DNA from: Thermoproteales archaeon
GTDB taxonomy: Archaea > Thermoproteota > Thermoprotei > Thermofilales > B69-G16
DNA length: 40,680 nucleotides
Reading direction: 5' to 3'
NCBI GenBank assembly: GCA_021161825.1
Contig: JAGGZW010000079.1
Coordinates: 1-40,680, forward strand
A program made the translations under genes and the position numbers. Shown piece after piece: positions 5,523 to 39,387 of this stretch (position 1 is the first letter of the stretch; each line of letters starts with the position of its first letter). The notes beneath the pieces are model-generated. The model was not told the DNA's origin. It searched no databases and saw only the letters and a list, made by a program, of their open reading frames with translations.

Positions 5523-7749
5523 CCTTGTACACTAGAACCCATTGGTTTGGTTCTGAAGCATAGACAAGCTCAAAATGTTCTGGTGGAGGTATTCTCACCA
5601 TAGGAGCGCCCCCTTCTTCAGGTCCATAGCCCGGAAAAGGCATTGGCTTGCCAAATCCGAGAAAGTCTAAAGGCTCAAAGACGAACATTCTCCTTCTATC
5701 CGTCTTCCTGAATAAAAGTCTATATAGAGTCGCATTTCTAGCCTCTGGAGTATCGGCAGGAACGATTATAGGTACCTGTCCACTTCTCGTGCGGAGAACC
5801 GTTACTGTTTGGAAACGATTTGGATCCCATCCAATCCACCTAGCCATTTGGTAACTTTTAGCGAAATCGCCACCATACCCGGATAGAGCGACTGAGGTGT
5901 AAACGTACTGCCCTAGCATAGGCAGCGTCCTGCTATAAGGATTGGGGATTTGCAGCGGTGTGTTCTCGCCACCGAGGAAAGGCTCGAATACTACAACATA
6001 TGACACTTTTAGCCGCTTGAAGATTTTCAATGCCTCAGTTTCGTTAGATAGAAAAGCTCTGGCTATCAGCCTTATCTGAGTGCTGTTGATTGTACCATTA
6101 TCGCATGTAGTATTACGTCTAGTCATTACTGCAATCCAATAACCATAGTCCCACCACGTGGCTATAACAGAGTTTTCTGGAACGTTATTTCTAATCCACT
6201 CCAAGGCTGAAAGCCAATCAGCGTCGATTTGTGCAGTGCTCGAAGTTAAGATAAGAACTGGTTGGTTAGAATATCTAACCGTGGTTTCAGAAACAACAAC
6301 AGGCACTAGCAAAAGTATGATAATTATTATTGAAAAAGCCACAACTTCACGGCTCAATCCAGCCTCTTTTTTGAACTTAAGCCTTTTAGGGGGGCGCATT
6401 ATGTCGAGCAGTGTTTCAACTATAATTAAAAAACCCATACCTCCAGCTAAGATCACCGGTAATGACTGCACCAGCGATAATCTTGCCAGTGACGCCGCGG
6501 CATACGTAGATGTAAGCCATAATAATCCTAAAAGATAACCCTCTAAGCTCTTTCTTTTCAAAGAATAAAAGGCACCAAACAGCGAAAACACTAGTAACAT
6601 GCCAAAATCTTGATAAATTTGAGACCATGACGGAACTGCATGCTCAGCTACTGTCGTTATACCAACTTCTCTCAACCATGGAAATACCACGGCTAGCATT
6701 CTACCAGCTAGACGCGGTATAACGTTGTAAATAGATAGAATCGTTATGAGGACAGCTATAACTAGAAACGCGGCTAAATAAAGTTTTCTAGGATTCTTGA
6801 TAGCAGGTAAACGAGGTCTCATAAGAGTCAATAATGATAGGATGTTACCAGCCATGGGTAAAAGCGCATATGCCGACATGAAAGCCTTGTCAGGACCAAA
6901 TCTAGGAATTATCGCTATAAAAACTTGGAAAATTACGTTGCTTATGATGAAGCTTTCGGCAGCGTTTTTATCGTTTGGATGAAGAAGAAGCCATATAACG
7001 ATCAACAGGGAAAGTAATTCCCATATGTAAATGTAGCCTCCCCACGCCAAAGCTACAATGCCATAACTTAATCCCGCAATTATTGCCCATGACATTTTTT
7101 CTTCTCTATACGATTTTAGAAAGGCATAAAGACCAAATAGAATCGCAGGTATTGCTATGCCCTCATGCTTTGCTCCCAGGTTAGTCCTATAAATAAAGGG
7201 GAAGCTGATAGATATAAAAAACGCGCTGAAAATGCCTAAATTATCATCTTTAAGCTTTCTTCCTACAAGAAACATTGCGAACGTAGCAAATGAAGCAGCA
7301 ATAGCTGGTAAGAATGCATGTATCTCGTATAGACTAACAGGAAATCCGAACAAGTTATTAAGAATGTAGTAAATTATTGCCGAGAATATGGCGCTTCCCG
7401 GCTGGCTCGACCTTCTTAGATCGCGGCCATAAGGTGCCCAGAAGAGAGTATCTTTTGGTTTTGGCGAGGGTTCGAACCACCAGTTAAACCACCACGCGAT
7501 ACCTTTGAAAATATTGTCGTCGCTTTTCTCGATAATTCTCTCTGCGAGATAGTACTCGTAATAGGGGTCAAATTCATTCAAGTATACGCCCCAGCGCATA
7601 GGCGTTATTCTTATCAAGATAGCTATGGAAAAGCTGAACGTTAGAATCAACGCGATTAATATCCTGTTATCAGACATTACATCAAGGAACTTTACGAAGG
7701 CTTTTCTAGCTTTGCCGGCAAACTTTTTAAGTTTCCGCTTTATTTCCAT
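5494..7749 (-). CDS. aglB: archaeal oligosaccharyltransferase AglB (STT3 family)
   Basis: 751 residues from ATG 7749, chosen because GGTGGTGG lies directly upstream and the extra upstream codons in the open frame do not look coding. About a dozen transmembrane helices are followed by a C-terminal soluble domain. The first acidic motif FDPYYEYY lies near residues 58-66, and the family hallmark WWDYGYW near 531-537. STT3/AglB transfers a dolichol-linked glycan to Asn of N-x-S/T sequons outside the cytoplasmic membrane. A minus-strand box A (GCTTAAATATGT, 7785-7796) gives a leader of about 16 bases. Convergent with nop10, overlapping it by 29 bases. Confidence 0.93.
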   Translation of the reverse strand: MEIKRKLKKFAGKARKAFVKFLDVMSDNRILIALILTFSFSIAILIRITPMRWGVYLNEFDPYYEYYLAERIIEKSDDNIFKGIAWWFNWWFEPSPKPKDTLFWAPYGRDLRRSSQPGSAIFSAIIYYILNNLFGFPVSLYEIHAFLPAIAASFATFAMFLVGRKLKDDNLGIFSAFFISISFPFIYRTNLGAKHEGIAIPAILFGLYAFLKSYREEKMSWAIIAGLSYGIVALAWGGYIYIWELLSLLIVIWLLLHPNDKNAAESFIISNVIFQVFIAIIPRFGPDKAFMSAYALLPMAGNILSLLTLMRPRLPAIKNPRKLYLAAFLVIAVLITILSIYNVIPRLAGRMLAVVFPWLREVGITTVAEHAVPSWSQIYQDFGMLLVFSLFGAFYSLKRKSLEGYLLGLLWLTSTYAAASLARLSLVQSLPVILAGGMGFLIIVETLLDIMRPPKRLKFKKEAGLSREVVAFSIIIIILLLVPVVVSETTVRYSNQPVLILTSSTAQIDADWLSALEWIRNNVPENSVIATWWDYGYWIAVMTRRNTTCDNGTINSTQIRLIARAFLSNETEALKIFKRLKVSYVVVFEPFLGGENTPLQIPNPYSRTLPMLGQYVYTSVALSGYGGDFAKSYQMARWIGWDPNRFQTVTVLRTRSGQVPIIVPADTPEARNATLYRLLFRKTDRRRMFVFEPLDFLGFGKPMPFPGYGPEEGGAPMVRIPPPEHFELVYASEPNQWVLVYKVIYPESFSG

Positions 7750-9730: not shown

Positions 9731-9804
9731 GCGCCGGTGGTCTAGTCTGGTAGGATGGTGGCCCCCCAAGCCGCTGAACCCGGGTTCGAATCCCGGCCGG
9801 CGCA
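9731..9804 (+). tRNA. tRNA-Gly (anticodon CCC), with C33
   Basis: A full cloverleaf folds: acceptor GCGCCGG/CCGGCGC, D stem GTCT/GGAT with G18G19 in the loop, anticodon stem GTGGC/GCCGC, variable loop TGAAC, T stem CCGGG/CCCGG with loop TTCGAAT, discriminator A at 9804. The anticodon loop reads CCCCCAA, so anticodon 9765-9767 is CCC (reads GGG glycine codons), and position 33 (9764) is C, where almost all tRNAs have U. CCA is not encoded and no intron is present. A T-rich stretch follows (CTTTTATTTCTTATTT), a likely terminator. Confidence 0.93.
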
Positions 9805-9950
9805 CTTTTATTTCTTATTTACCTATGTTTTTAAACCAAAAACGGCAATTGTGATGCTATAGGATGACCGAAATTATCAGCTAAACAAGGTAATAACTTC
9901 AGCAAAACCACGTAGAAATGTTAATAAGTTATCATAGAAATACTTAACAC
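9805..9950 (+). promoter_or_regulatory. spacer between tRNA and SRP RNA with likely SRP RNA promoter
   Basis: No coding frame is convincing here. TTAATAAGTT at about 9921-9930 is centred some 26 bases before the 5' end of the SRP RNA and is a plausible box A. T-rich sequence at the left end probably terminates the tRNA transcript. Confidence 0.4.
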
Positions 9951-10296
9951 GCCCGCAGGGGAAGGCCTCGAGGCCCTAGCCCTGGCCTCCGCATAGCCGT
10001 ATAGGCTATGCGCCGCAAACCGGGCTTACGGCGGGAGGCGTTAACCCACGGCCAGTCAATCCTCTTCAAACTCGGACTATGGCAAACTCGGTATGAAGCT
10101 CAGTCCCGCAGGGTCGCCGCGGGTGATAGGTCTCTCGTAGGAGAGGCCGAATCACCGAACTGTCCGAAGCGGGTTAGGCCCGGGAGGGAGCGGCCCTAAG
10201 GACGGGCGGCGACGTTTGCGGGAGCGCTGGGCTGACTGGAGTTGCCATAGTTTCCGAGTTTGAACGATTGGCGACCCGTGGGGAAGCCCTGCGGGC
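9951..10296 (+). ncRNA. ffs: signal recognition particle RNA (7S RNA)
   Basis: Identified by structure. The ends pair perfectly: GCCCGCAGGG (9951-9960) with CCCTGCGGGC (10287-10296), helix 1 of archaeal SRP RNA. Near the 5' end are two hairpins (GGCC-TCGA-GGCC and GCATAGCC/GGCTATGC) matching the Alu-domain helices 3 and 4. A long helix 5 forms from CAAACTCGG/CCGAGTTTG and ACTATGGCAAACTC/GAGTTGCCATAGT. Helix 6 is GGTCTCTC-GTAG-GAGAGGCC with a GNAR tetraloop, the SRP19 site, flanked by GGTGAT/ATCACC. Helix 8 (10162-10201) carries the SRP54 loop as AGG-CCC-GGGA-GGG-AGCGG. About 346 nt, a little longer than usual. It is much more GC-rich than its surroundings, as expected for structured RNA of a thermophile. 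Confidence 0.92.
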
Positions 10297-12269: not shown

Positions 12270-12421
12270 GACCTCCTAAGGAAAGGAAATATGGAAAAGG
12301 CGCTCGAAGATGTGTAAGATGTGGAACTCATGAAGCCTTAGTGAGAATGTACGGCCTAAACCTGTGTAGGCGATGCTTCAGGGAAGTAGCCGAAATCATG
12401 GGCTTTAAAAAATACATGTAG
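12257..12421 (+). CDS. rps14: 30S ribosomal protein S14 (zinc type)
   Basis: 54 residues, short but full length for the archaeal zinc-binding S14. It starts [17 protein letters not shown] and carries a CVRC...CRRC zinc ribbon. GTGAGGAG at 12246-12253 is the ribosome binding site. It overlaps the end of rpl5 by 13 bases and is followed 12 bases later by rps8. Neighbour order is standard. Confidence 0.95.
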
Positions 12422-12433
12422 GGGTGATATTTA

Positions 12434-12826
12434 GTGGTAGTTATAGATAATCTTGCTAACGCTTTATCTACTATAATGAATAATGAAATGAGAGGTAAAA
12501 AGGAGTGCGTGGTCTATCCAGCCTCAAAATTCATAGCACAAGTACTGCGGGTAATGCAGAAATATGGTTACATAGGGGAATTCGAGTATATTGATGATGG
12601 TAGAGCGGGTAAGTTTCGTATTCAACTTTTGGGGCGTATAAACAAATGCGGCGTTATAAAGCCGCGTTTTTCTACTAAAAAGGATGAGTTTAGCGAATGG
12701 GAGAAAAAATTCCTGCCTTCTAGAGATATAGGAATACTCATAGTCTCTACATCTAAAGGAGTTATAAGTCATATAGAAGCGAAGGAAATGGGTATTGGAG
12801 GGGTGCTCGTAGCCTATGTCTATTAG
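12434..12826 (+). CDS. rps8: 30S ribosomal protein S8
   Basis: 130 residues from a GTG. It begins [17 protein letters not shown] and ends with the S8 signature [19 protein letters not shown]. It binds helix 21 of 16S rRNA. In almost all archaea L6 follows directly; here the last 11 bases of rps8 overlap the start of rpl32e instead, so L6 is cleanly missing from this place. Confidence 0.96.
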
Positions 12827-13211
12827 CGAAGAATCCAAAAAGGAAATAGCTAGGTTGTTAAAAATTAGAACGTTAATGAAAATGAAAAAACCAAGATTCA
12901 TTCAAATGAATTCTTGGTATTTAGCCAGACTTGGAGATAAATGGAAAAGACCTAAAGGTCTCGACAATAAAATTAAAAGAGAGAAAAAGGGTTTTCCTGC
13001 TAGAGTAAAGATTGGCTATCGTAAGCCGAAGCTAGTGAGAGGATTTCATCCCTGCGGAATGGTCGAAGCCCTAGTACACAATGCAAAAGAGTTGGTGGAT
13101 TTAAATCCAGACATTCATGCTATTAGAATATCGTCTCGCGTGGGTAAGCTTAAAAAATCCGAAATAGTTAAAAAGGCTAAAGAACTAGGCTTCAAAGTTT
13201 TAAACGAGTAG
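12816..13211 (+). CDS. rpl32e: 50S ribosomal protein L32e
   Basis: 131 residues. [25 protein letters not shown] and the [18 protein letters not shown] segment are diagnostic of L32e. ATG 12816 lies inside rps8, and GGAGGGGTG just upstream is the ribosome binding site, so it is translationally coupled to S8. It normally follows L6. Confidence 0.96.
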
Positions 13212-13224
13212 TGGTGGTAAAACT

Positions 13225-13674
13225 ATGACAATAAAGACTATAAAAAGAATGGCGGCTGATATTCTCAAAGTAGGGGAGAGTAGGATTTGGATCGATCCGG
13301 AAAGGGAAAATACGCTTTACGATGTGGTGTCTAGGGAGCAGGTGAAAAAGTTAATACACGACGGTGTTATTAAAAAGCTACCACCGTCTACCCCCTCCCG
13401 TGGTAGGATAAGAATACGAAAAATGCAAAAAAGGAAGGGTAGGAGAAGGGGTCACGGTAAAAGAAAAGGGCCTAGATTTGACGAAAAAGAGTTATGGATA
13501 AATAAAATAAGGGCGCAAAGGAAGTTTCTTAAAAAATTAAGAGAAAGAAAGCTGGTAGATAGGAAAACGTACAGACGCTTATACAGGCTTGCCAAAGGAG
13601 GATTTTTCAGAAACATTGCGCACTTAAAGCTCTATATAACTGAGCATAAACTTGTTAAAAAGAGGCGATTGTGA
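13225..13674 (+). CDS. rpl19e: 50S ribosomal protein L19e
   Basis: 149 residues. IKTIKRMAADILKVGESRIW and the long basic helical region RIRIRKMQKRKGRRRGHGKRKG identify L19e. The C-terminal KLVDRKTYRRLYRLAKGG is also conserved. GTGGTGGT at 13211-13218 is the ribosome binding site. It ends at a TGA (13672-13674) one base before the ATG of rpl18. Confidence 0.96.
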   Translation: MTIKTIKRMAADILKVGESRIWIDPERENTLYDVVSREQVKKLIHDGVIKKLPPSTPSRGRIRIRKMQKRKGRRRGHGKRKGPRFDEKELWINKIRAQRKFLKKLRERKLVDRKTYRRLYRLAKGGFFRNIAHLKLYITEHKLVKKRRL

Positions 13675-13675
13675 T

Positions 13676-14275
13676 ATGCCTAAGATGGGCGCCAGGTATA
13701 AGATTCCTTTCAAAAGAAGAAGAAAATGCTTGACAAATTACAAAAAGAGAAGGGCACTTATTCTCTCGGGAAAGCCGAGATTGGTTGTCAGAAAATCGAA
13801 TAAAAACATTTTTGTGCAAGTTATTACGGCAGAGCCGCAGGGAGATGTTACGCTAGTATCAGCACATTCAAAACAATTAGTAAAAAATTTCGAATGGAAA
13901 GCATATACTCGAAATATTCCAACTGCTTACTTGCTAGGGCTTATTGCAGGATTCCAAGCAATGAAAAAGAACATAGGCGAAGCTATACTAGACATAGGCT
14001 TACACCGATCAACTAAAGGAAATATAATATACGCGGCGGTCAAGGGAGCTTTAGATGCGGGGTTAAAGATCCCCGTGAGGGAGGATATGCTTCCAGGGGA
14101 TGATAGAATCTCGGGGGAACACATAGCTAAATATGCTCAAATGTTGAAGGAAATCGATCCTGAAAAATATGATAGGCAGTTTTCCTCATACTTGAAGAGG
14201 GGCTTGCCACCTGAGGAACTACCAAATCACTTTGCTGAAATAAAAGAGAAGATCATCAAATTTTTCTCGGCTTAA
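13676..14275 (+). CDS. rpl18: 50S ribosomal protein L18
   Basis: 199 residues from ATG 13676, where MPKMGARYKIPFKRRR matches the usual start; a longer in-frame opening at 13652 lies inside rpl19e. Contains RRALILSGKPRLVVRKSNKNIFVQV, the 5S rRNA-binding region of L18. Its end overlaps the end of the convergent rpl30 by 4 bases, because S5-L30, which should follow on the same strand, lie inverted here. Confidence 0.95.
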   Translation: MPKMGARYKIPFKRRRKCLTNYKKRRALILSGKPRLVVRKSNKNIFVQVITAEPQGDVTLVSAHSKQLVKNFEWKAYTRNIPTAYLLGLIAGFQAMKKNIGEAILDIGLHRSTKGNIIYAAVKGALDAGLKIPVREDMLPGDDRISGEHIAKYAQMLKEIDPEKYDRQFSSYLKRGLPPEELPNHFAEIKEKIIKFFSA

Positions 14276-29891: not shown

Positions 29892-30606
29892 TAAAGAATT
29901 TTTTGTAGATGCTCACTGTCATCTTTATGAATTTTCAACGGTGGAAATTGAAAAATTTGGCGAATTTAAAATTTTAGCAGTGTCCGATGATTTAAGCTCG
30001 TCAATTAAAACGATAAACCTCTCGCGTATATATTTGAATGTAATTCCATGTATAGGAATACATCCTTGGGAAATAAACGAGGAAAGCGTTAAGCAGTTAG
30101 AGCGTCTTAAGCAGTTCCTTCCAAAGATAAAATGTCTAGGAGAAATAGGATTAGACAAACGGTTCGTTCCCAAAACGTACAAGCTTCAACTAAAAATCTT
30201 CCAAGAATTCCTAGAAAATGCTAGAAACTACAACTTGATAGTGAATCTTCATGCTGCTGGAGCGTGGAGAGAAGTCTATAACCTCGTCAAGAAATATGAC
30301 GTTAGCAGAGCTATCTTTCACTGGTACAGCGGTCCATTAGACCTACTGAGGGAAATCGTGGACAGCGGCTACTGCATAACGATAAACCCTACGGTGGTCA
30401 TAAACAAAAAGCATATGCAAGCTCTAAAACAAGCAAGTATAGAAAACATACTAACTGAGAGCGATGGACCATATAAATATCGGGGATTCGATCTGAGACC
30501 GGAGCTTATTAAAAACACGATAAAAGTGATAGCTCAGGTGAAAAATATCAACGTAGAACAAGTTAAAAAACAAATATTATACAACTTTAATAAACTGTTC
30601 AAATAG
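29863..30606 (+). CDS. tatD: TatD-family metal-dependent hydrolase
   Basis: 247 residues. The metal-binding motifs of TatD deoxyribonucleases appear in order: DAHCHL near the start, GIHPWEI, GEIGLD, NLHAAG, FHWYSG and ESDGPY. The family acts as 3'-5' exonuclease or related phosphoesterase on nucleic acids. The first ATG (29863) lies inside the regulator gene; the residues before FFVDAHCHL are not conserved, so a later start cannot be excluded, although no later ATG precedes the motif. Confidence 0.88.
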   Translation: MEISRVSSNNKEFFVDAHCHLYEFSTVEIEKFGEFKILAVSDDLSSSIKTINLSRIYLNVIPCIGIHPWEINEESVKQLERLKQFLPKIKCLGEIGLDKRFVPKTYKLQLKIFQEFLENARNYNLIVNLHAAGAWREVYNLVKKYDVSRAIFHWYSGPLDLLREIVDSGYCITINPTVVINKKHMQALKQASIENILTESDGPYKYRGFDLRPELIKNTIKVIAQVKNINVEQVKKQILYNFNKLFK

Positions 30607-30771
30607 CGACCATATTAAACCGTGAAGACCCAAAAACTCAAACAGTCGAATGAATTAGTAAGATCGCTTATAGAATTCGAGCAAAATCTCATGATATAAG
30701 GAAATAAAAGTTGTAAATTCGCCATCAAGCATAGTGTCTATTATCTAATGCTAACAGTTTTTATAGACTGA
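30607..30771. other. gap between convergent genes, no gene seen
   Basis: 165 bases between the ends of tatD and surE. AT-rich, with CAGTTTTTATAG (30749-30760) a possible terminator for one side. No RNA gene or repeat is visible. Confidence 0.3.
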
Positions 30772-31554
30772 CTAGCGTAAACGTTCATTAACTCTGTTTA
30801 CGAAACTTATAACGTTCCGGTGGTCAATAATGTAGAAATTAAGCGATATCGGCGTTAGAGCGACTTTTTTCTCGACAAGAACCACGTAAACGTCTGTGCC
30901 TTTCTCCGGCTTTACGGGCTCGCCGTATAGCCAATAGTACACGCCTCCCCTAGGGTCAATTCTCTTCTCTACAATGTTAACAAATCTTACTCTAGCAGGC
31001 CGCGCAACTTTAACCTCGTAAGACGGGGAGTCGGGAAAATTAACGTTTAAAATATCGATGCCCGAGGGGAAACCGTTTTCAAGAATCTCGTATACGATTT
31101 CCTTTATGCATTTCTTGATGGATTCATAGAACTTCCTATCTGAAAATAGAGCTTCGCCCTTAACAACTGCGACTGAGAAGGCTACGGCGGGGATGCCTTC
31201 TAAAGCAGCTTGAGCAGCAGCGCCGACAGTGCCAGATGACAATATCACTTGGATACTAGTGTTATCGCCTATGTTCACGCCGGAAACTACCAGGTCCACG
31301 GGGCCGGTTATAGTTTTCAAAGCCATGTAGATTATATCGCTCGGCGTGCCGTTGATTAGGAAGGCGCGGGTATCCTCGAATTTCACTTCGTTAATCCTAA
31401 GAGGCTTATGTAGAGTAATGCCTAGCCCGCTAGCAGATTTAGGCGTTTCGGGCACGATAACGTAGGCCTCGCCCAGATCTCTAACCGCGTTATAAAGCAG
31501 TTCGAGACCGGGGCTGTATAGCCCGTCGTCGTTCGTAATTAAAATACGCTTCAC
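30772..31554 (-). CDS. surE: 5'/3'-nucleotidase SurE
   Basis: 260 residues from a GTG at 31554, with GAGGTGATG just upstream. ILITNDDGLYSPGLELL holds the Asp9-Asp10 metal ligands, PETPKSASGLGITLHKPL the conserved Ser, and DLVVSGVNIGDNTS the Asn site. SurE removes phosphate from nucleoside monophosphates and short polyphosphates in the cytoplasm. AAATATTTAAATG at 31592-31604 (minus strand CATTTAAATATTT) is a good box A. Confidence 0.93.
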   Translation of the reverse strand: MKRILITNDDGLYSPGLELLYNAVRDLGEAYVIVPETPKSASGLGITLHKPLRINEVKFEDTRAFLINGTPSDIIYMALKTITGPVDLVVSGVNIGDNTSIQVILSSGTVGAAAQAALEGIPAVAFSVAVVKGEALFSDRKFYESIKKCIKEIVYEILENGFPSGIDILNVNFPDSPSYEVKVARPARVRFVNIVEKRIDPRGGVYYWLYGEPVKPEKGTDVYVVLVEKKVALTPISLNFYIIDHRNVISFVNRVNERLR

Positions 31555-31853
31555 GTCATCACCTCAACAAGTTAAACGTCTACGCATTTACAAATATTTA
31601 AATGCTATGTAAGCTAAAGATTTAAACTCGCGCCTTAATACAGCTATGTCTAAAAATACCATGTTTAATTAAACTTGAGAGATAACTGATGGATACATGT
31701 TAAGCGGGGCTTCGGTTAAGGATCCATAAATTAGCTATAAACTGAGCAAGGAATGTTTGCCGTTGGAATAAATGTTTAAGGTTTACAAAACAGATATTAA
31801 AATCGAAAAATCTAGCATAGTTATATATACGGGGTGTCCCACTATTTTCTTGA
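31555..31853. promoter_or_regulatory. divergent promoter region of surE and the V4R gene
   Basis: The left part carries the surE box A (31592-31604, minus strand). The right part carries TTATATATA at 31821-31829, centred about 28 bases before the V4R ATG at 31854, so that mRNA is leaderless. The middle (about 31620-31810) holds no gene I can support. Confidence 0.5.
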
Positions 31854-32672
31854 ATGAAAACGGTAAAATCTTTAGATATAGGACACACGGTCAAGCTAGC
31901 CGATGGACAGCCAGTCGGAATTTTTATAACATACAAGCCGGAAGCATTGCAAATGTTAGGAGTTTTAAAAGAAACTCTTGAGCACATCGCGGAATCCGAA
32001 CTACCAGTAGTTCATTTACTAACTTCTCTTCCCAGTCCTGGGCAGATATTGTGCGGCTACGTGATAGTCGATGCAGCCGGCAAGGAAGATAAAATAAAAC
32101 AGTTAATAAGAAAAATCAAAAAACTGGAATACGTCGAAGATGTAGAAGTCTACTATCCATCAAAGAGCGGTATGTTGACAGCAACTCCATTCGACGTTCT
32201 CAAAGTATCCGGTATGAGAGGCATGGTCTGGGTAAAGCCGATGTTTAAAGCGTTTATCAGAACTTTCCAAGAGATGGTTGGAACGGGAGGCTCCGCCATA
32301 ATATACAACATGGGTTATATAATTGGTAAGGAAGCCTTTCATGAACACATGAAAATAGCCGGTAGCGATAAAAGAGAAGCTCTAGAAGTAAGCAGAAATT
32401 TCTTTAAAGCATCCGGGCTGGGAAGCGTAGAGTTCAGGCATATAGATGTGAAAAAGGGAAAGGCAATAGTAAGAGTCTACAACAGCTTCGAATGCGAGCT
32501 ATTTCCAAACATAGGAAGACCCGCTAGCCAGTTTATAAGAGGAATAGTGGCTGGCTGGATATCAGCTTTACTGGAAAAAGAAGTTGAAACTAGAGAAACA
32601 AAATGCCTCGCAAAGGGAGATCCCTTTTGTGAATACGTGATCAGGGCAGTCGATAATTCAGCCTCTTTCTAG
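31854..32672 (+). CDS. V4R (4-vinyl reductase) domain protein with N-terminal ACT-like region
   Basis: 272 residues, leaderless ATG. The N-terminal about 100 residues (VGIFITYKPEALQMLGVLKE ... YVEDVEVYYPSKSG) look like an ACT-type regulatory domain. The C-terminal V4R domain is seen in SAIIYNMGYIIGKEAFHEHM, then SFECELFPNIGRPASQFIRG and WISALLEKEVETRETKCLAK, with the Cys pair of KCLAKGDPFCEY. V4R domains bind small molecules and occur in regulators and in bacteriochlorophyll enzymes. A sensory or adaptor role is likely; ligand unknown. Confidence 0.75.
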   Translation: MKTVKSLDIGHTVKLADGQPVGIFITYKPEALQMLGVLKETLEHIAESELPVVHLLTSLPSPGQILCGYVIVDAAGKEDKIKQLIRKIKKLEYVEDVEVYYPSKSGMLTATPFDVLKVSGMRGMVWVKPMFKAFIRTFQEMVGTGGSAIIYNMGYIIGKEAFHEHMKIAGSDKREALEVSRNFFKASGLGSVEFRHIDVKKGKAIVRVYNSFECELFPNIGRPASQFIRGIVAGWISALLEKEVETRETKCLAKGDPFCEYVIRAVDNSASF

Positions 32673-32832
32673 ACGATAAGCCCTGATAAAATTCATGCCA
32701 ACAGTATTTTGACGAAGCCTAAAATCTCTTTTCCAACTAGAAGCCGCACTCTTCCAACCTATCCGAGAAATGCAGCTATTAACGCAGCTTCGAAACAATC
32801 TCTTCTAGTAATACTCGCTCATGTCCAGTCCC

Positions 32833-32844
32833 TAAATATTTAAG
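32833..32844 (+). promoter_or_regulatory. box A promoter of the GNAT-racemase pair
   Basis: TAAATATTTAAG lies about 52 bases before the ATG at 32891, leaving a leader with GGGTGG (32878-32883) as ribosome binding site. The rest of the 32673-32890 gap shows no gene. Confidence 0.45.
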
Positions 32845-32890
32845 GCATAAAATAAAACATAAGCTTATCAAATACGCGGGTGGAATGCCC

Positions 32891-33781
32891 ATGAAAAAAA
32901 CGGTAGAAGTTACCATAAAGCCGATCGACGACCCGGAAAAATACTGGGAGGTAGTAGATGTTTCCATCGATGCCTGGGGCATGAAAGACTATAGAGACGC
33001 TGTTCCCGCGCATATGATGAAAGCCATAGCCGACAATGGAGGCTTAGTGCTTGCCGCGTTTGAAGGCAATAAAATAGTCGGCTTTGTCCTCGGCATACTG
33101 GCTATGGATAATCAAGGAAAACTACACCATTACTCCCACCAGCTCGCCGTCAGGAGAAAATATAGAGGCACTGGAGTGGCAATCGCGTTAAAACTAGCCC
33201 AGAGAAGACACGTTTTAAACCAGGGATTAGACCTGGTTACTTGGACTTTCGATCCACAACAAGGCAGAAATGCAAAGTTTAACTTCGCCAAGCTTGGGGT
33301 AATATGCAGAAAATTCTACAGGAACTACTATGGAATATTACAAGACGAGATAAATAGAGGTCTAGTAACCGACCGCTTTAAAGTAAAATGGTGGATTAAA
33401 AGTAAGAGAGTTGAAAAACGCATAAACGGCAGATTCCCACCGCCAAAAATGGAAGATGTCGAAGACCTAGCTGAGCCAGTAGTAGAAACTGAGAAAATAG
33501 TCCAAAACGTGAGAAAAATAAAAAAGGTAAACTTAGACGCTAAGAACGATGTTTTGCTAGTTGAAGTTCCGGGTAACGTAGACAAGGTTAGAGAATATAG
33601 CCTCGAACTGGCGAACAATTGGAGGATAGGGCTTAGACCAGTTTTTGAAAAATACTTTTCTGAAGGCTATATAGCTACAGAATTTATCTCCCACGTAGAA
33701 AACGGGGAAAGGAGAAACTTCTACATGCTATGGAAGGCACCTCTCGAAAAAATACTTGAAGGTGAAGCCCCGTGGAGATAA
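32891..33781 (+). CDS. GNAT-family N-acetyltransferase (COG3375-like)
   Basis: 296 residues from ATG 32891 (ATG 32885 is too close to the GGTGG). The GNAT core is at about residues 45-120: LAAFEGNKIVGFVLGILAM, then HQLAVRRKYRGTGVAIALKL with the R/Q-x-x-G-x-G/A acyl-CoA loop in RKYRGTGVA. An additional C-terminal region is longer than in ordinary GNATs, as in the archaeal/bacterial family encoded beside N-acylamino acid racemases. It overlaps that gene here. Probably acylates an amino acid or peptide which the neighbour then handles. Confidence 0.75.
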   Translation: MKKTVEVTIKPIDDPEKYWEVVDVSIDAWGMKDYRDAVPAHMMKAIADNGGLVLAAFEGNKIVGFVLGILAMDNQGKLHHYSHQLAVRRKYRGTGVAIALKLAQRRHVLNQGLDLVTWTFDPQQGRNAKFNFAKLGVICRKFYRNYYGILQDEINRGLVTDRFKVKWWIKSKRVEKRINGRFPPPKMEDVEDLAEPVVETEKIVQNVRKIKKVNLDAKNDVLLVEVPGNVDKVREYSLELANNWRIGLRPVFEKYFSEGYIATEFISHVENGERRNFYMLWKAPLEKILEGEAPWR

Positions 33782-34878
33782 GAAAGATAGAAGTCTACGA
33801 GCTGGAAATGAAGCTTAAAGAGTATTTCGAGACAAGCTTCGGCAGCGTACAAACTAGGCCAGTAATACTGGTCAAGGTAGAAGAGAAAAACGGCGAGGAG
33901 GGATGGGGGGAAGTCGTCGCCGGAGAGGGGCCATGGTACAACTACGAATCCTATGAAACCTCTCTAATCATACTAGACAAATACCTCATACCAATCATGC
34001 TACAGGCTAGCGAAGTATCGGCGAGAAACGCATGGAACCTAATGAAGAAAGTAAGAGGCTACAACGCTGCAAAGGCGGGGCTTGAAACTGCAATATGGGA
34101 TTTAGAGTCTAAGCTCCATGGCAAGCCCCTCTACAAGTACATTGGCGGAGCTAAGAAGCGGATACCGTCAGGGGTTAGCATAGGAATAAAAGAAAGCGTG
34201 GACAGGCTACTATCTATAATATCTAGAAGGCTAGAGGAAGGCTATATACGCATAAAAATCAAAATCAAACCCGGCTGGGACCTAGAAATACTGGAAACCA
34301 TTAGAAGCCAGTTTCCAGACATACCACTGCAAGTAGACGCGAACGCCGCCTACACTCTCAAAGACATAAATACTCTCAGACAGCTAGACAATTACAACCT
34401 GCTAATGGTCGAGCAGCCACTACACTATGAAGACCTAGCCGACCACGCCGTATTAGCTAGAAAACTATCGACGCCGATATGCCTAGACGAGAGCATTGTG
34501 AGCATCTACGACGCCAAGGCTGCGTATAAGCTAGGCTCGGCGGAGATAATCAACATAAAACCTGGAAGAGTTGGAGGATATACTCCAAGCATAGAAATAC
34601 ACGACTTCGCTAAGGCAACCGGCATAGGCTTATGGGTTGGAGGCATGCTGGAAACCGGGGTCGGTAGAGGGCATCAGGTAGCCTTGGCGACGCTGGAAAA
34701 CTTCACATATCCAAACGATATATCGGCAAGCAGCCGATACTGGGAAAAAGACATCGTAGAGCCGGAGTGGGAGATGAAAAACGGGTATATCGAAGCACCT
34801 GAAAAACCGGGGATAGGCGTCGAAGTACTCCAAGACCATATAGAAAAAATCTCAAAAAGAAAAAGGGAATACCGTTAA
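33772..34878 (+). CDS. enolase-superfamily N-acylamino acid racemase / o-succinylbenzoate synthase
   Basis: 368 residues from a GTG overlapping the upstream GNAT gene by 10 bases. The enolase-superfamily catalytic set is complete: Lys in the IKIKIK stretch (162-166), metal ligands Asp189 (VDANAA), Glu214 (MVEQPL) and Asp239 (CLDES), and Lys263 (NIKPGRVGG). GVGRGHQVALATLENF near the end is typical of this group. No other menaquinone genes are near, and the GNAT partner favours N-acylamino acid racemase over MenC. The codons drift toward A and C endings through this gene, the left shoulder of the asymmetry described for EF-2. Confidence 0.85.
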   Translation: MEIRKIEVYELEMKLKEYFETSFGSVQTRPVILVKVEEKNGEEGWGEVVAGEGPWYNYESYETSLIILDKYLIPIMLQASEVSARNAWNLMKKVRGYNAAKAGLETAIWDLESKLHGKPLYKYIGGAKKRIPSGVSIGIKESVDRLLSIISRRLEEGYIRIKIKIKPGWDLEILETIRSQFPDIPLQVDANAAYTLKDINTLRQLDNYNLLMVEQPLHYEDLADHAVLARKLSTPICLDESIVSIYDAKAAYKLGSAEIINIKPGRVGGYTPSIEIHDFAKATGIGLWVGGMLETGVGRGHQVALATLENFTYPNDISASSRYWEKDIVEPEWEMKNGYIEAPEKPGIGVEVLQDHIEKISKRKREYR

Positions 34879-35146
34879 TACCTTCTCCAATAAACTTTTT
34901 TAGACCGCTTGGAGCCGGCAATACAATCTTTTCTTTCAACCTTTTCCTCTATACTCTTCCACGCACTTTTTGCTGCAGAAAACCTGCCATGCCGCCAGTA
35001 GCTTCGTCCTTGCCAACAGTTGCTGCACAGTCGTTCTATCATCCAAGTATAAAATCCGGAAACGAATATTCAACAGTATCCAGTCCAGAAAAATTTATTA
35101 CCCCTCCTTCATTCTTCAAATAAGCCTACTAGTTGAGGTGTATAAA
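34879..35146 (+). promoter_or_regulatory. intergenic region with EF-2 promoter
   Basis: 268 bases without a supported gene. AAAAATTTATTA at 35089-35100 is a good box A, about 50 bases before the EF-2 start. GAGGTG (35135-35140) is the ribosome binding site for the TTG at 35147. The region is C-rich and G-poor on the plus strand, in line with the local strand bias. Confidence 0.5.
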
Positions 35147-37351
35147 TTGGTAAAATACAAACAGACAGCGGACATCCTAAAAATAATGAGAAACATTGAA
35201 CAAGTAAGAAACATAGGCACCCTAGCACACGTAGACCACGGAAAAACAACCACATCAGACAGCCTGCTAATGGGAGCCGGATTATTAAGCCCCAAAACAG
35301 CAGGCAAAGCCCTAGCCCTAGACTACGTAGAAATAGAACAGCTCAGGCAGATGACGGTAAAAGCCGCAAACATAAGCCTCTACCACGAATGGAAAGGAAA
35401 ACCATACGTAATCAACCTAGTAGACACTCCAGGCCACGTAGACTTCACAGGACACGTAACCAGAAGCCTCAGAATGATGGACGGCGGAATAGTAGTAGTA
35501 GACGCCGTCGAGGGAGTAATGACCCAGACAGAGACTGTATTAAGGCAGGCATTAGGCGAGAGAGTGAGACCCCTACTCTACATAAACAAGGTAGACAGGC
35601 TAATCAAAGAACTAAAGCTAAGCCCCCAAGAAATACAGGAAAGATTCGTAGAAATAGTAAAAGACTTCAACGCGCTAATAGAACTATACGGCGAGCCCGG
35701 ATTCAAAGAAAAATGGAAAGTAGACTTCAAGCGCGGACAAGTAGCATTCGGAAGCGCACTACACAAATGGGGACTAACAATACCAATAGCAGTAAAGAAA
35801 GGATTAAAATTCGACTATATAGTCGACGCCTACCAGAAAGGATACTACGAAGAACTGGCAAAAGAATTCCCGCTCTACGTCGCCCTGCTGGACATGGTTG
35901 TAGAACACGTGCCAAACCCGCGGCAAGCACAAAAATACAGAGTACCCAAACTCTGGAAAGGAGACCTAGACGGTCCAATAGGCAAAGCAATGACAGAATG
36001 CGACCCTGAAGGACCAGCAGTAGTAGCAATAAGCAAGATAATCTTCGACCCACACGCGGGATTCGTAACAACAGGAAGAGTATTCAGCGGAACAGTAAAA
36101 TCCGGACAAGAAGTATGGCTAGTAAACGCGAAAACCCAACAAAGAATACTGCAAGTAGGGCTCTACATGGGACCATACAGGGAAATAGCAGAAGAAATAA
36201 CAGCAGGAAACATAGTCGCACTACTAGGACTAGACAAGGCACGAGCAGGAGAAACAGCAGTAGACGTAAAATACAAAGACCAAATGGCACCATTCGAAAG
36301 AATGGCATACGTAAGCGAGCCGGTCGTAACAATAGCAATAGAACCCAAAAAAAGCAGCGACCTACCAAAACTGGTTGACGCCCTCAGAAAACTAGCAATA
36401 GAAGACCCAACACTAAAAGTAACAATAAACCAGGAAACAGGAGAATACCTGATAAGCGGAATGGGAACACTACACCTAGAAATAACACTCTGGGAACTAA
36501 ACCAGCGAACCGGACTAGAAGTAATAACAAGCCCACCAATAGTAAGATACAGAGAAACAATCAAAAAACCAAGCCAAACATTCGAAGGCAAAAGCCCCAA
36601 CAAACACAACAAACTATACATCAGCGTAGAACCACTAAACCAAGAAACACTACAACTACTACAAAAAGGAGAAATCTACGACGGACAAGACTGGCGGCAA
36701 AGAGCAAAAATACTAAGAGAAAAAGCAGGATGGGACACAGACCAAGCAAGAGGAATATGGGCAATAGACGACAACCTAAACATACTCGTAGACCTAACAA
36801 AAGGAGTACAACACCTAAGAGAAATCAAAGACACAATAATCCAAGCATTCATATGGGCATTCGAAGAAGGACCACTAGCACGAGAACCAGTAAGAGGAGT
36901 CAAAGCAATACTACACGACGCCATCGTTCACGACGATCCAGCTCATCGTGGCCCGGCGCAGATTATGCCTGCGACGCGGCATGCTATTTATGCTGCGTTT
37001 TTGAGTGCTGATCCGATACTGTTGGAGCCGATTTTGAAGATTGATGTGAAGGTTCCGCAGGAGCAGCTTAGCGGCGTGTTGAGCGTGATCACGAAGCGTA
37101 GGGGTAAGATTTTGAACATGGAGCAGCATGGTCTTTTGATGAGGGTTAAGGGTGAGATTCCGGTGAGTGAGACTTTTGGTTTGGCGGATGATATGCGGAG
37201 TACGACTCAAGGCAGAGCTTTCTGGAGTACTGAGTTTTCTCGTTGGGCTCCGGTTCCGTCGAGTATGCTTTTGGATTTGGTGATGAAAATTAGGGAGCGT
37301 AAAGGGCTTCCAAAGAGGATTCCTAGGCCCGAAGACTTCCTCGGTCCTTAA
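35147..37351 (+). CDS. fusA: translation elongation factor EF-2
   Basis: 734 residues from TTG 35147; the frame is open further upstream, but the protein then starts [20 protein letters not shown] as in other archaea, and GAGGTG lies 6 bases before. GTPase motifs: AHVDHGKTT (27-35), DTPGHVDF and NKVD. The diphthamide loop [17 protein letters not shown] carries His600 (codon 36944-36946). It translocates tRNA and mRNA with GTP hydrolysis. Codon usage is abnormal: about 36182-36237, of 19 codons 15 end in A, 3 in C, 1 in G and none in T; about 37022-37078, of 19 codons 12 end in G, 5 in T, 2 in C and none in A. The change falls at about 36912-36960, over the diphthamide loop. The protein sequence itself is normal throughout. 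Confidence 0.96.
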
Positions 37352-37463
37352 GTATTTTGATGGCTATTATTATTGATATTTTATTCTCTGTCTTTGCTAA
37401 GTATAGTCTAATTTTTCTCTAAAGTAGTTTCTTAGGCTTGTTTCTAGTGACTCAAATGTTTTC
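37352..37463. other. short AT-rich gap after EF-2, no gene seen
   Basis: T-rich plus strand (GTATTTTGATGGCTATTATT and onward), suitable as terminator for EF-2. The plus strand is poor in A-rich codon-like runs and rich in T and G, continuing the polarity of the EF-2 3' part. Confidence 0.3.
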
Positions 37464-38164
37464 TCATGTTATATTTGGATTTTTAGAAACATGCCATGAT
37501 AATACCGTTATTAGGAAAGTTATAAGGCTTGTAATGATTACCAAAGGATTTGCCGCAATAAATGAAAGTAAAGTCATAAGTGTCATGGGCCTGAGTAGTA
37601 GTGCAGATATGGTGTAAATGCCTGTTATAGTCTCTAGCAGGTGGTTACTGTTAGTATGTGTGAGCGGGTGGACTTTCCTTTGGGGGAGTGTTAGAGTATT
37701 TTTTTGGGCTATGGTTTTTACTAGTTTTTTGATGGATTTTAGTGCTTTTTCTACGTCGTCTTTGTTGCACCAGTTTTCGTAGAAGCATACGTGCATTTCC
37801 ACTGCTCTCGCCCACGCGTCGCCCGCCCGTTCTCCAAGTTCGCTTTCTATTTTCCTCTTGTATTCCCAGAGTTGGCCGTGGCTCGTTAATCGCATGCCGT
37901 TTTTCCAGTATGCGTAAGCCTTGACTGCTAGTGCGGTTGCTCCCCAAACTTTTCTGCTGCCTGTCTTACGTTGTCTTTTTCTAGCTCTTTTCCGGCTTCG
38001 GCTAGTAGTTCTTCTGAGGCTTTCATGTACTCTTTAGCCTTGTTTTTGGGGTCTAGGTTTTGAGTTAGTAGTTCAAGTAAGTATTCTTTTTTGCTTAGGT
38101 TGTGTTTTTTAGCTTCTTTTTTGAGGCGTTTGGCGATGACGCCGCTGATTAAAATGGTCTCCAT
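37464..38164 (-). pseudogene. PaREP1-family protein, frameshifted
   Basis: The first frame starts at ATG 38164 and covers 78 residues (ISGVIAKRLKKEAKKHNLSK, then ASEELLAEAGKELEKDNVRQAAEKF); it then leaves the family sequence at 37946-37948, where one T (an A on the plus strand) appears to be missing. Adding one base in that run restores WGATALAVKAYAYWKNG and joins the second frame, MRLTSHGQLWEYKRKIESEL and the later VEMHVCFYENWCN, all of which fit PaREP1 proteins. A hydrophobic tail of about 75 residues then follows, which PaREP1 proteins usually lack. Box A (TTTAAATACC on the minus strand, 38196-38205) is intact. PaREP1 function is unknown. A sequencing error could also explain the shift. 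Confidence 0.75.
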
Positions 38165-38195
38165 GTTCTTCCCTAAGATATTTTGCTTGGAGGTA

Positions 38196-38205
38196 TTTAA
38201 ATCTC
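38196..38205 (-). promoter_or_regulatory. box A promoter of the PaREP1 gene
   Basis: Minus-strand TTTAAATACC centred about 36 bases before ATG 38164, consistent with a short leader. Confidence 0.4.
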
Positions 38206-38527
38206 CTAAGGTATTTTATGGCTTCTTTCGTATATTTTGTTATTTGGATGGTTTTCTATTTTGTGTTTTTATATTGTGGATGGTCTCGTGGGGGAAGTTA
38301 GGGTATCTTTATTGTGATGGTCGTTGTATTTCTCGAGGGATTTTAACGAGATGGATATAGTAGGGTTGGGAGTGTTTGCTTATTTTTGAGAGATTATCTG
38401 GGGGTGGGGAATTTACTGTTGATTCTAGTTTTGAATAGGTATTCCGTCTTTTACTATATTTCTTCGGTTTGCGTTTGGGATTTGTGGGCTGTTTTCTCTT
38501 TTGAGGTTTTGTCTTATGTTTATCCTA
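38206..38527. other. gene-poor, G/T-rich region
   Basis: About 320 bases with no coding frame I can support on either strand. The plus strand is strongly T- and G-rich with few C, which produces spurious open frames on the plus strand. No repeats or RNA genes are recognised. Confidence 0.4.
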
Positions 38528-38770
38528 TTATTTCATATTTTTCTTCGTTTTTAGCGTGATTACGTTGTATGGTTTGTAGTCGTCTGTGACGTCTATGGCT
38601 ATTTCTGTTATTCCTGATTTGAGGGCTTCTAGCCAGAGGTTTTCTGCTTGTTCTTTTGTGGGTCCGTGTTTTCTATTAGGTATTTTCTAGTTTTTTAGTG
38701 GTAGTGCGTTGGTGTGGTGGTGTTTTAGGGCTTCTTTGAGGATTTTTTCTATTTATTTTTCATCGTTTGG
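38528..38770 (-). pseudogene. decayed minus-strand gene, function unknown
   Basis: A minus-strand frame ending at TAA 38528 reads HGPTKEQAENLWLEALKSGI, then TEIAIDVTDDYKPYNVITLK, clearly protein-like. Going upstream it meets an in-frame TAG at about 38687-38689. Beyond the TAG the same frame continues as ILKEALKHHHTNALPLKN. An ATG near 38760-38762 is out of frame with it, so at least one nonsense change and one frameshift separate the pieces. All parts use A/C-ending codons like the neighbours. I do not recognise the family. Confidence 0.5.
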
Positions 38771-38797
38771 GGTGTTCGTTGGGGTTTATAAGGGGGT

Positions 38798-39178
38798 TTA
38801 TTCGGGGTTTAGCTCTTTTAGTATCTTTTTTATTTCTTCTTCTGTTGGTTCTTTTTGTAGTATTCTTTTTAGTTCTTCTTCTTGTTCTATTTCTCTTTTT
38901 ACGGCTTCTATAATTTCCCAGTCTTCTTCGGTCATGTATTCTACTACGATTGTCTTTTTTGTTATGTGTCCTTGTTCGTCTACGTCGGCTATGATTCCTG
39001 TGTCTATTATTTTCTCTTTTGCCGCCCGTTTGTAGATCTCTATTGCTTGTTCCCGCGTGTAGCCTTGTTCTTGAAGGTAGCCTAGAAACTCTTCTCTGGT
39101 TATTGTTTTCCTATTGTAGTGTCGGAAGATTTGTTCTATTAGTTTTCTTAGGTTTCGCGGTGTTCTGAGTGTTTTCAT
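38798..39178 (-). CDS. hypothetical 126-residue charged, mostly helical protein
   Basis: From ATG 39178. The first half is helical and basic (LRTPRNLRKLIEQIFRHYNR, then ITREEFLGYLQEQGYTREQA), possibly a small helix-turn-helix; a middle beta part reads DTGIIADVDEQGHITKKTIV; the end is a Glu/Lys-rich helix with two EEEIKK-type repeats. No family is recognised. Nearly all codons end in A (in 38821-38880, all but one of 19), the mirror image of the EF-2 5' region. A minus-strand box A (CTTATATGCC, about 39200-39209) predicts a leaderless start. Clearly coding by its composition. Confidence 0.55.
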   Translation of the reverse strand: MKTLRTPRNLRKLIEQIFRHYNRKTITREEFLGYLQEQGYTREQAIEIYKRAAKEKIIDTGIIADVDEQGHITKKTIVVEYMTEEDWEIIEAVKREIEQEEELKRILQKEPTEEEIKKILKELNPE

Positions 39179-39387
39179 GGCGTTTTATTTGTCCGTTATG
39201 GCATATAAGGGAAGCGTTTTAAGAGATTATTTAAGGATCGTGGACTTTTGTTGTCTTTGCTCTTCGCCTATAATTTGTGTAAGGATCTTTTTCAGCGTAT
39301 ACTAAGATTCCCGGAAGTAAGACTCTCATTTATTCAACTTAGTGATTTTACGAATTTACATTAAAGCCCTAAACCAAAAGAGTTTAC
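39179..39387. other. intergenic region, transition back to balanced composition
   Basis: About 210 bases without a supported gene, holding the promoter of the gene at 39178 on its left. To its right the sequence loses the G/T excess and the next gene has ordinary codon use. Confidence 0.3.

Follow-up and report, generated by a model that had tools for sequence, protein, structure and literature searches.

Here we describe a point inside the gene for elongation factor 2 (fusA, aEF-2) of a heat-loving Thermoproteales archaeon at which the base composition of the strand inverts, G or T occupying 13% of third codon positions before about position 36937 and 86% after it (0.128 to 0.855). Steps of the same polarity recur at tRNA and SRP RNA genes and in valS of a congener, and this extension to stable RNA genes and other housekeeping genes was not foreseen by the original prediction made for this DNA. 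Taken together, these sequences suggest that such sites are where a process of strand-specific mutation begins, perhaps through local synthesis of DNA. The window (40,680 nt) is contig 79 (C79) of a 1.67-Mb metagenome-assembled genome of 132 contigs (G000); the genomes compared with it are metagenome assemblies except for a few complete ones. Coordinates are collected in Table 1.

Results

The switch within fusA

The change-point in third-position keto content was placed at 36937 with a log-likelihood gain of 139 (its 2-lnL range covers 5 codons, from 5 codons before the AHRGPAQ Ala up to that Ala), and the switch is completed in roughly 18-20 bases, in keeping with the predicted span of less than about 50 bases at the diphthamide loop. 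Third positions have a keto skew of -0.86 across 36190-36925 and of +0.72 across 36943-37348. The base counts that had drawn attention to the gene were reproduced: identically for codons 37022-37078 (12 G, 5 T, 2 C, 0 A), and as 15 A and 3 C for codons 36182-36237, where the single G first reported lies outside the frame cut used here. Because codon positions 1 and 2 change far less than position 3, the protein is conserved and is, as predicted, a normal EF-2 (the TIGR00490 cut-off is 738 bits). Two-fold pyrimidine codons end in C in 100% of cases immediately left of the switch and in 27% to its right, which shows a strong strand bias of transitions. Among left-hand four-fold sites A (0.86) far outnumbers C (0.11), so transversions or selection contribute as well. 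The surrounding DNA is coding, with about 44% GC, and the fusA stop lies about 410 bp from the switch.

The further claim that only silent sites had changed did not survive, as the non-coding DNA at 38170-38790 is also skewed (+0.49); the DNA of the whole region carries the bias, which reaches beyond codons and beyond the gene. Likewise, the inversion is abrupt at its center, but on the left the amino (A/C) excess climbs gradually from background, with a fitted exponential decay length of ~1.8 kb plus a small offset. Keto skew per 500 bp is about -0.1 near 34 kb, -0.33 at 36.5 kb and +0.2 to +0.48 over 37-39 kb. A scan of skew, a check of the kind that the original prediction had proposed, places the fusA step (0.57 over 1-kb arms) as the largest in 759 kb sampled from G000, a sample of about half of the genome that was partly picked through earlier hits. 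The runner-up (0.44) lies on contig C74, where positions about 6400-6700 hold the second strongest amino-to-keto step of the genome, with no Rfam match or gene identified there. Other contigs, sampled earlier (373 kb), gave a standard deviation of 0.074 for 300-bp skew, all windows staying within |0.33|.

Table 1. Features of the window related to the strand switch
Feature	Positions	Strand	Description
tRNA-Gly	9731..9805	+	Weak same-polarity step (left -0.14, right +0.02)
Archaeal SRP RNA	9954..10293	+	RF01857, 132.9 bits; weak same-polarity step (left -0.12, right +0.08)
Left arm	30000..36921		A/C excess on + strand that grows as the switch is approached: -0.1 to -0.33 (per 500 bp); third positions close to the switch, -0.86
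fusA (aEF-2)	35147..37351	+	TTG start; TIGR00490, 911.6 bits; Pfam EF-2 domains; carries the switch
Amino-to-keto switch center	36922..36943		Change-point; at and just before the diphthamide-loop codons CAC GAC GAT CCA GCT CAT CGT GG
Right arm	36944..39258		G/T excess on + strand, +0.2 to +0.5, coding and non-coding; abrupt end near 39258
PaREP1-family frame, C-terminal part	37467..37895	-	In right arm; PF05942, E=2.6e-10, model positions 56-115 only

Several local features were considered for the switch site and set aside. No RNA family was found in 36700-37200, which speaks against a hidden RNA gene, and a C/D-box match on the minus strand at 36884-36929 was sub-threshold (E=0.31). A tRNA-like diphthamide loop was rejected on alignment scores at background level, and a DNA hairpin on a fold z of -1.4 and the lack of any notable inverted repeat, the only one in 36700-37200 being 9 nt long. 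The site is protein-coding and coincides with no stable RNA gene, although its polarity is that of the stable-RNA-gene sources described below.

Further observations concern the arms and the wider genome. Right-arm keto skew falls abruptly to zero near 39258 (from 0.45 to 0.02 over 1-kb arms), which suggests a younger junction or rearrangement there. The PaREP1-family frame (37467-38165, minus strand) appears broken in its N-terminal part, and its region has a 71% identical stretch on contig C62. A CRISPR array with repeat CTTTCAATTCCTTTTGGGATTTTAC stands at the end of contig C113, and the DNA preceding it is strongly A/C-rich.

fusA in relatives

Comparison with the fusA of relatives, also proposed originally, found strong switches in two other genera of the order (G021 and G023), a weak one in G026, and no comparable switch in most of about 30 relatives examined. 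Change-points in the loop, located independently in four genera, have offsets of -2, 0, 0 and +4 codons relative to the AHRGPAQ Ala, the last being the weak case with a wide range (-22 to +8). The closest named EF-2, that of 'Thermoprotei archaeon B9_G17' (82% identity), is encoded by a fusA without a switch. The three strong cases share a nucleotide motif, CCAGCTCATCGTGG, which by eye has no obvious counterpart at valS or other sources. G021 and G023 each have a further switch on the 5' side, at codons that differ between the two; in G021 the composition reverses gradually between its switches, a pattern expected of two superposed sources. Pairwise identities of the 5' and 3' protein halves of EF-2 from G000, G021 and G023 are concordant, and the 3' halves do not cluster. 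Upstream of fusA in G023, two tandem similar frames (12280-14269) reach the contig end and are extremely A/C-rich on the fusA coding strand. The EF-2 gene was not detected in two congeneric bins about 80% complete (G001 and G002), whose skewed contigs are perhaps mis-binned.

Steps at valS and at stable RNA genes

An in-frame pattern search over 61 genomes returned the fusA site as the sole match in G000 and in G021. In the congener G001 it found valS (TIGR00422), with the same antisymmetric profile and decay over about 2 kb, while a step fell on tRNA-Met in the congener G002 and on tRNA-Tyr in G054; RNA genes were therefore tested for steps. Across 55 distinct tRNA genes, with flanks compared at a distance of 100-600 bp, the step averaged +0.069, against 0.000 (sd 0.012) for random positions, of which 0 of 2000 attained that value, and ordinary intergenic gaps had no comparable step in the same test. 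Follow-up sets consisted mostly of loci outside those that gave the idea. The amino-to-keto polarity was found at all 30 tRNA loci of G054 (mean step +0.31; one locus lay on a contig examined before), at 22 of 29 in G000 (mean +0.075; 14/18 on contigs new to the analysis) and at 26 of 30 in six other genomes (mean +0.11). SRP RNA genes followed suit, with 23 of 27 within the class (+0.17) and, beyond it, 21 of 28 (+0.064, p=0.014). The tRNA units of E. coli, by comparison, have no step (6/16, mean -0.016).

For G054, scanned over only about 30 kb of contiguous sequence plus the flanks of RNA genes, the sign of the tRNA step holds for genes on either strand and in non-coding DNA, so the step is not due to coding bias. 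It is stronger on the upstream side (0.20) than downstream (0.115, p=0.03). Counted over 1.1 Mb of partly selected sequence, both-sided steps run amino-to-keto in 10 cases (the window's own counted twice) and keto-to-amino in 3, the former class holding all but one of the strongest. Within G000 the RNA-gene effect is small relative to fusA, and a common cause of both is accordingly something that we infer. The sampled contigs of that genome bearing EF-1alpha-like GTPase genes (C26 and C114) show no comparable step. In G006, the strongest skew lies at the ends of contigs or close to them, as though the assembly tended to break beside such sources.

Discussion

We favor the reading, with a probability of roughly 45%, that the point near 36937 has long acted as a local source of mutation specific to one strand, arising from repeated outward DNA synthesis and single-strand deamination. 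A point source is supported by the abrupt step, the left-hand decay over ~2 kb, the effect on silent and non-coding sites alike, the recurrence at the same codon across genera and the polarity at RNA genes. That polarity is independent of orientation, the strand running 5'-to-3' away from the point gaining G and T, and the excess of amino-to-keto steps has the polarity of replication starts, where the leading strand is keto-rich. The mechanism itself (DNA synthesis, single-strandedness and deamination) we infer from sequence. DNA synthesis would be launched repeatedly in both directions from about 36937, its start primed by an R-loop, recombination or a break rather than at a canonical Orc1/Cdc6 origin. 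The strand 5'-to-3' away from the site would be left single-stranded, either as the template of lagging-strand synthesis or as a nascent strand that has been displaced. In the heat, this exposed strand could then undergo C-to-T and A-to-G deamination, making outward strands G/T-rich, and short synthesis tracts would give the short decay. Outward synthesis is preferred on strand geometry, since strand-displacing or bidirectional synthesis exposes exactly the outward strand; simple 5' resection at a break would, by the same geometry, expose the opposite one. Against outward synthesis stand the stronger upstream side at G054 tRNA genes, which symmetric initiation does not predict, and the A-over-C excess at left four-fold sites, and the choice of the EF-2 diphthamide loop has no explanation in it. 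More broadly, it is possible, if rather doubtful, that in Thermoprotei many stable RNA genes and fixed housekeeping points (in some lineages the EF-2 diphthamide loop) launch Orc1/Cdc6-independent outward synthesis and leave a deamination signature readable in sequence.

Genes for tRNA and SRP RNA are strongly transcribed, and divergent transcription is an alternative that we think unlikely while giving it some weight: very strong initiation at stable RNA genes, and at a cryptic strong promoter in fusA, would expose the non-template strand outward to transcription-associated deamination. Such transcription would suit the stronger upstream side of the G054 tRNA genes and the mild keto richness of G054 coding strands (+0.07 to +0.08). 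However, the outward keto step is absent from the 57 divergent and 116 co-directional gene gaps of G000, sense transcription of fusA crosses both arms while the left arm is biased the opposite way, and an antisense promoter acting over kilobases would be required in the diphthamide loop of several genera. More improbable is an integration hot spot, in which mobile elements would repeatedly enter and leave stable RNA genes, fusA and loci like them, their replication or repair skewing the flanks, with the assembled copy happening to be free of the element. Casposons are reported to insert at the 3'-distal end of aEF-2 in Thaumarchaeota and, in Euryarchaeota, at tRNA genes (PMC4046053), and assemblies tend to break near strong sources (the contig ends of G006, fusA in G021); yet the switch, at its distance from the fusA 3' end, is off the position targeted by casposons or integrases (a tRNA gene or the aEF-2 3' end), its surroundings yielded neither attachment repeats nor genes of an element, and the affected genomes do not share fusA 3' halves. 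An element-borne fusA 3' end was itself rejected on the concordant 5' and 3' identities.

The original prediction had named among its candidate causes a replication start point and a boundary between opposing mutational processes such as deamination of single-stranded DNA. A start point flanked by opposing single-strand mutation fits the polarity, the abrupt center and the decay. The skew at fusA does switch from amino to keto, as at a canonical origin, but an ordinary origin is doubtful because the contig (40.7 kb) carries no orc1/cdc6 gene, the skew has faded within about 2 kb and its sign is shared by tens of RNA genes in each genome. In G004 and G054, weak same-sign steps do occur at distances of 2 to 7 kb from cdc6 genes; the Cdc6 genes of G000 (PF09079) lie only on contigs C113, C95 and C64, and we regard a canonical Orc1/Cdc6-dependent origin inside or beside fusA as very unlikely. 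A third candidate in the original prediction was recombination between two EF-2 alleles. The recurrence at the same codon in other genera and the agreement of the 5' and 3' identities speak against both an assembly joint and a recombined allele. A mosaic of two alleles with opposite codon habits, or codon-usage selection, might be read from switches placed at conserved codons and from short alternating patches (~100-300 bp) of A/C- and G/T-ending codons seen in two genes named by eye, rfcS (G058) and one for an oxidoreductase (G014); the graded decay into non-coding flanks, the ungrouped 3' halves and RNA-gene flanks for which codons cannot account make it highly improbable. A chimeric joint or binning artifact, conceivable in so fragmented a metagenome assembly, would have to leave one intact EF-2 frame across the joint and arise at the same codon in separate genomes, strongly in two and weakly in a third, and is hardly credible.

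Comparison with known systems

If these points mark starts of DNA synthesis or breakage, base composition alone could map origin-independent initiation or fragility in uncultured archaea, bearing directly on archaeal replication without fixed origins. One close parallel is the strand switch at replication origins (leading-strand keto excess), which like fusA runs amino-to-keto at one point, on both strands and in coding and non-coding DNA; by contrast, the fusA site lies inside an essential gene, decays over ~2 kb rather than the length of a replichore, and has a sign that recurs at tRNA and SRP RNA genes. In mitochondria, C-to-T and A-to-G deamination of single-stranded DNA is the known chemistry behind such strand asymmetry (PMC3269015), and the strand-displacement gradients described there are likewise graded with distance and strongest at third positions; here, the setting is a cellular archaeal chromosome, the asymmetry is roughly symmetric about many local points, and the mechanism is a proposed one. 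Origin-independent starts, such as archaeal recombination-dependent replication and R-loop-primed cSDR in E. coli, would likewise add starts at places other than oriC, among them, plausibly, RNA genes under transcription; the portions of that work bearing on them do not describe a tRNA-gene skew signature (PMC11005403), and the wild-type E. coli tRNA loci are stepless here. Casposon sites fall in the same two locus classes as the skew sources, aEF-2 and tRNA genes, but at the aEF-2 3' end rather than the diphthamide loop, and skew is not described in the passages on these targets (PMC4046053). Finally, a recent survey concludes that strand-specific mutations are few in archaeal chromosomes (PMC12999951); in contrast, some archaea studied here are very strongly strand-biased at discrete points, tRNA and SRP RNA genes among them.
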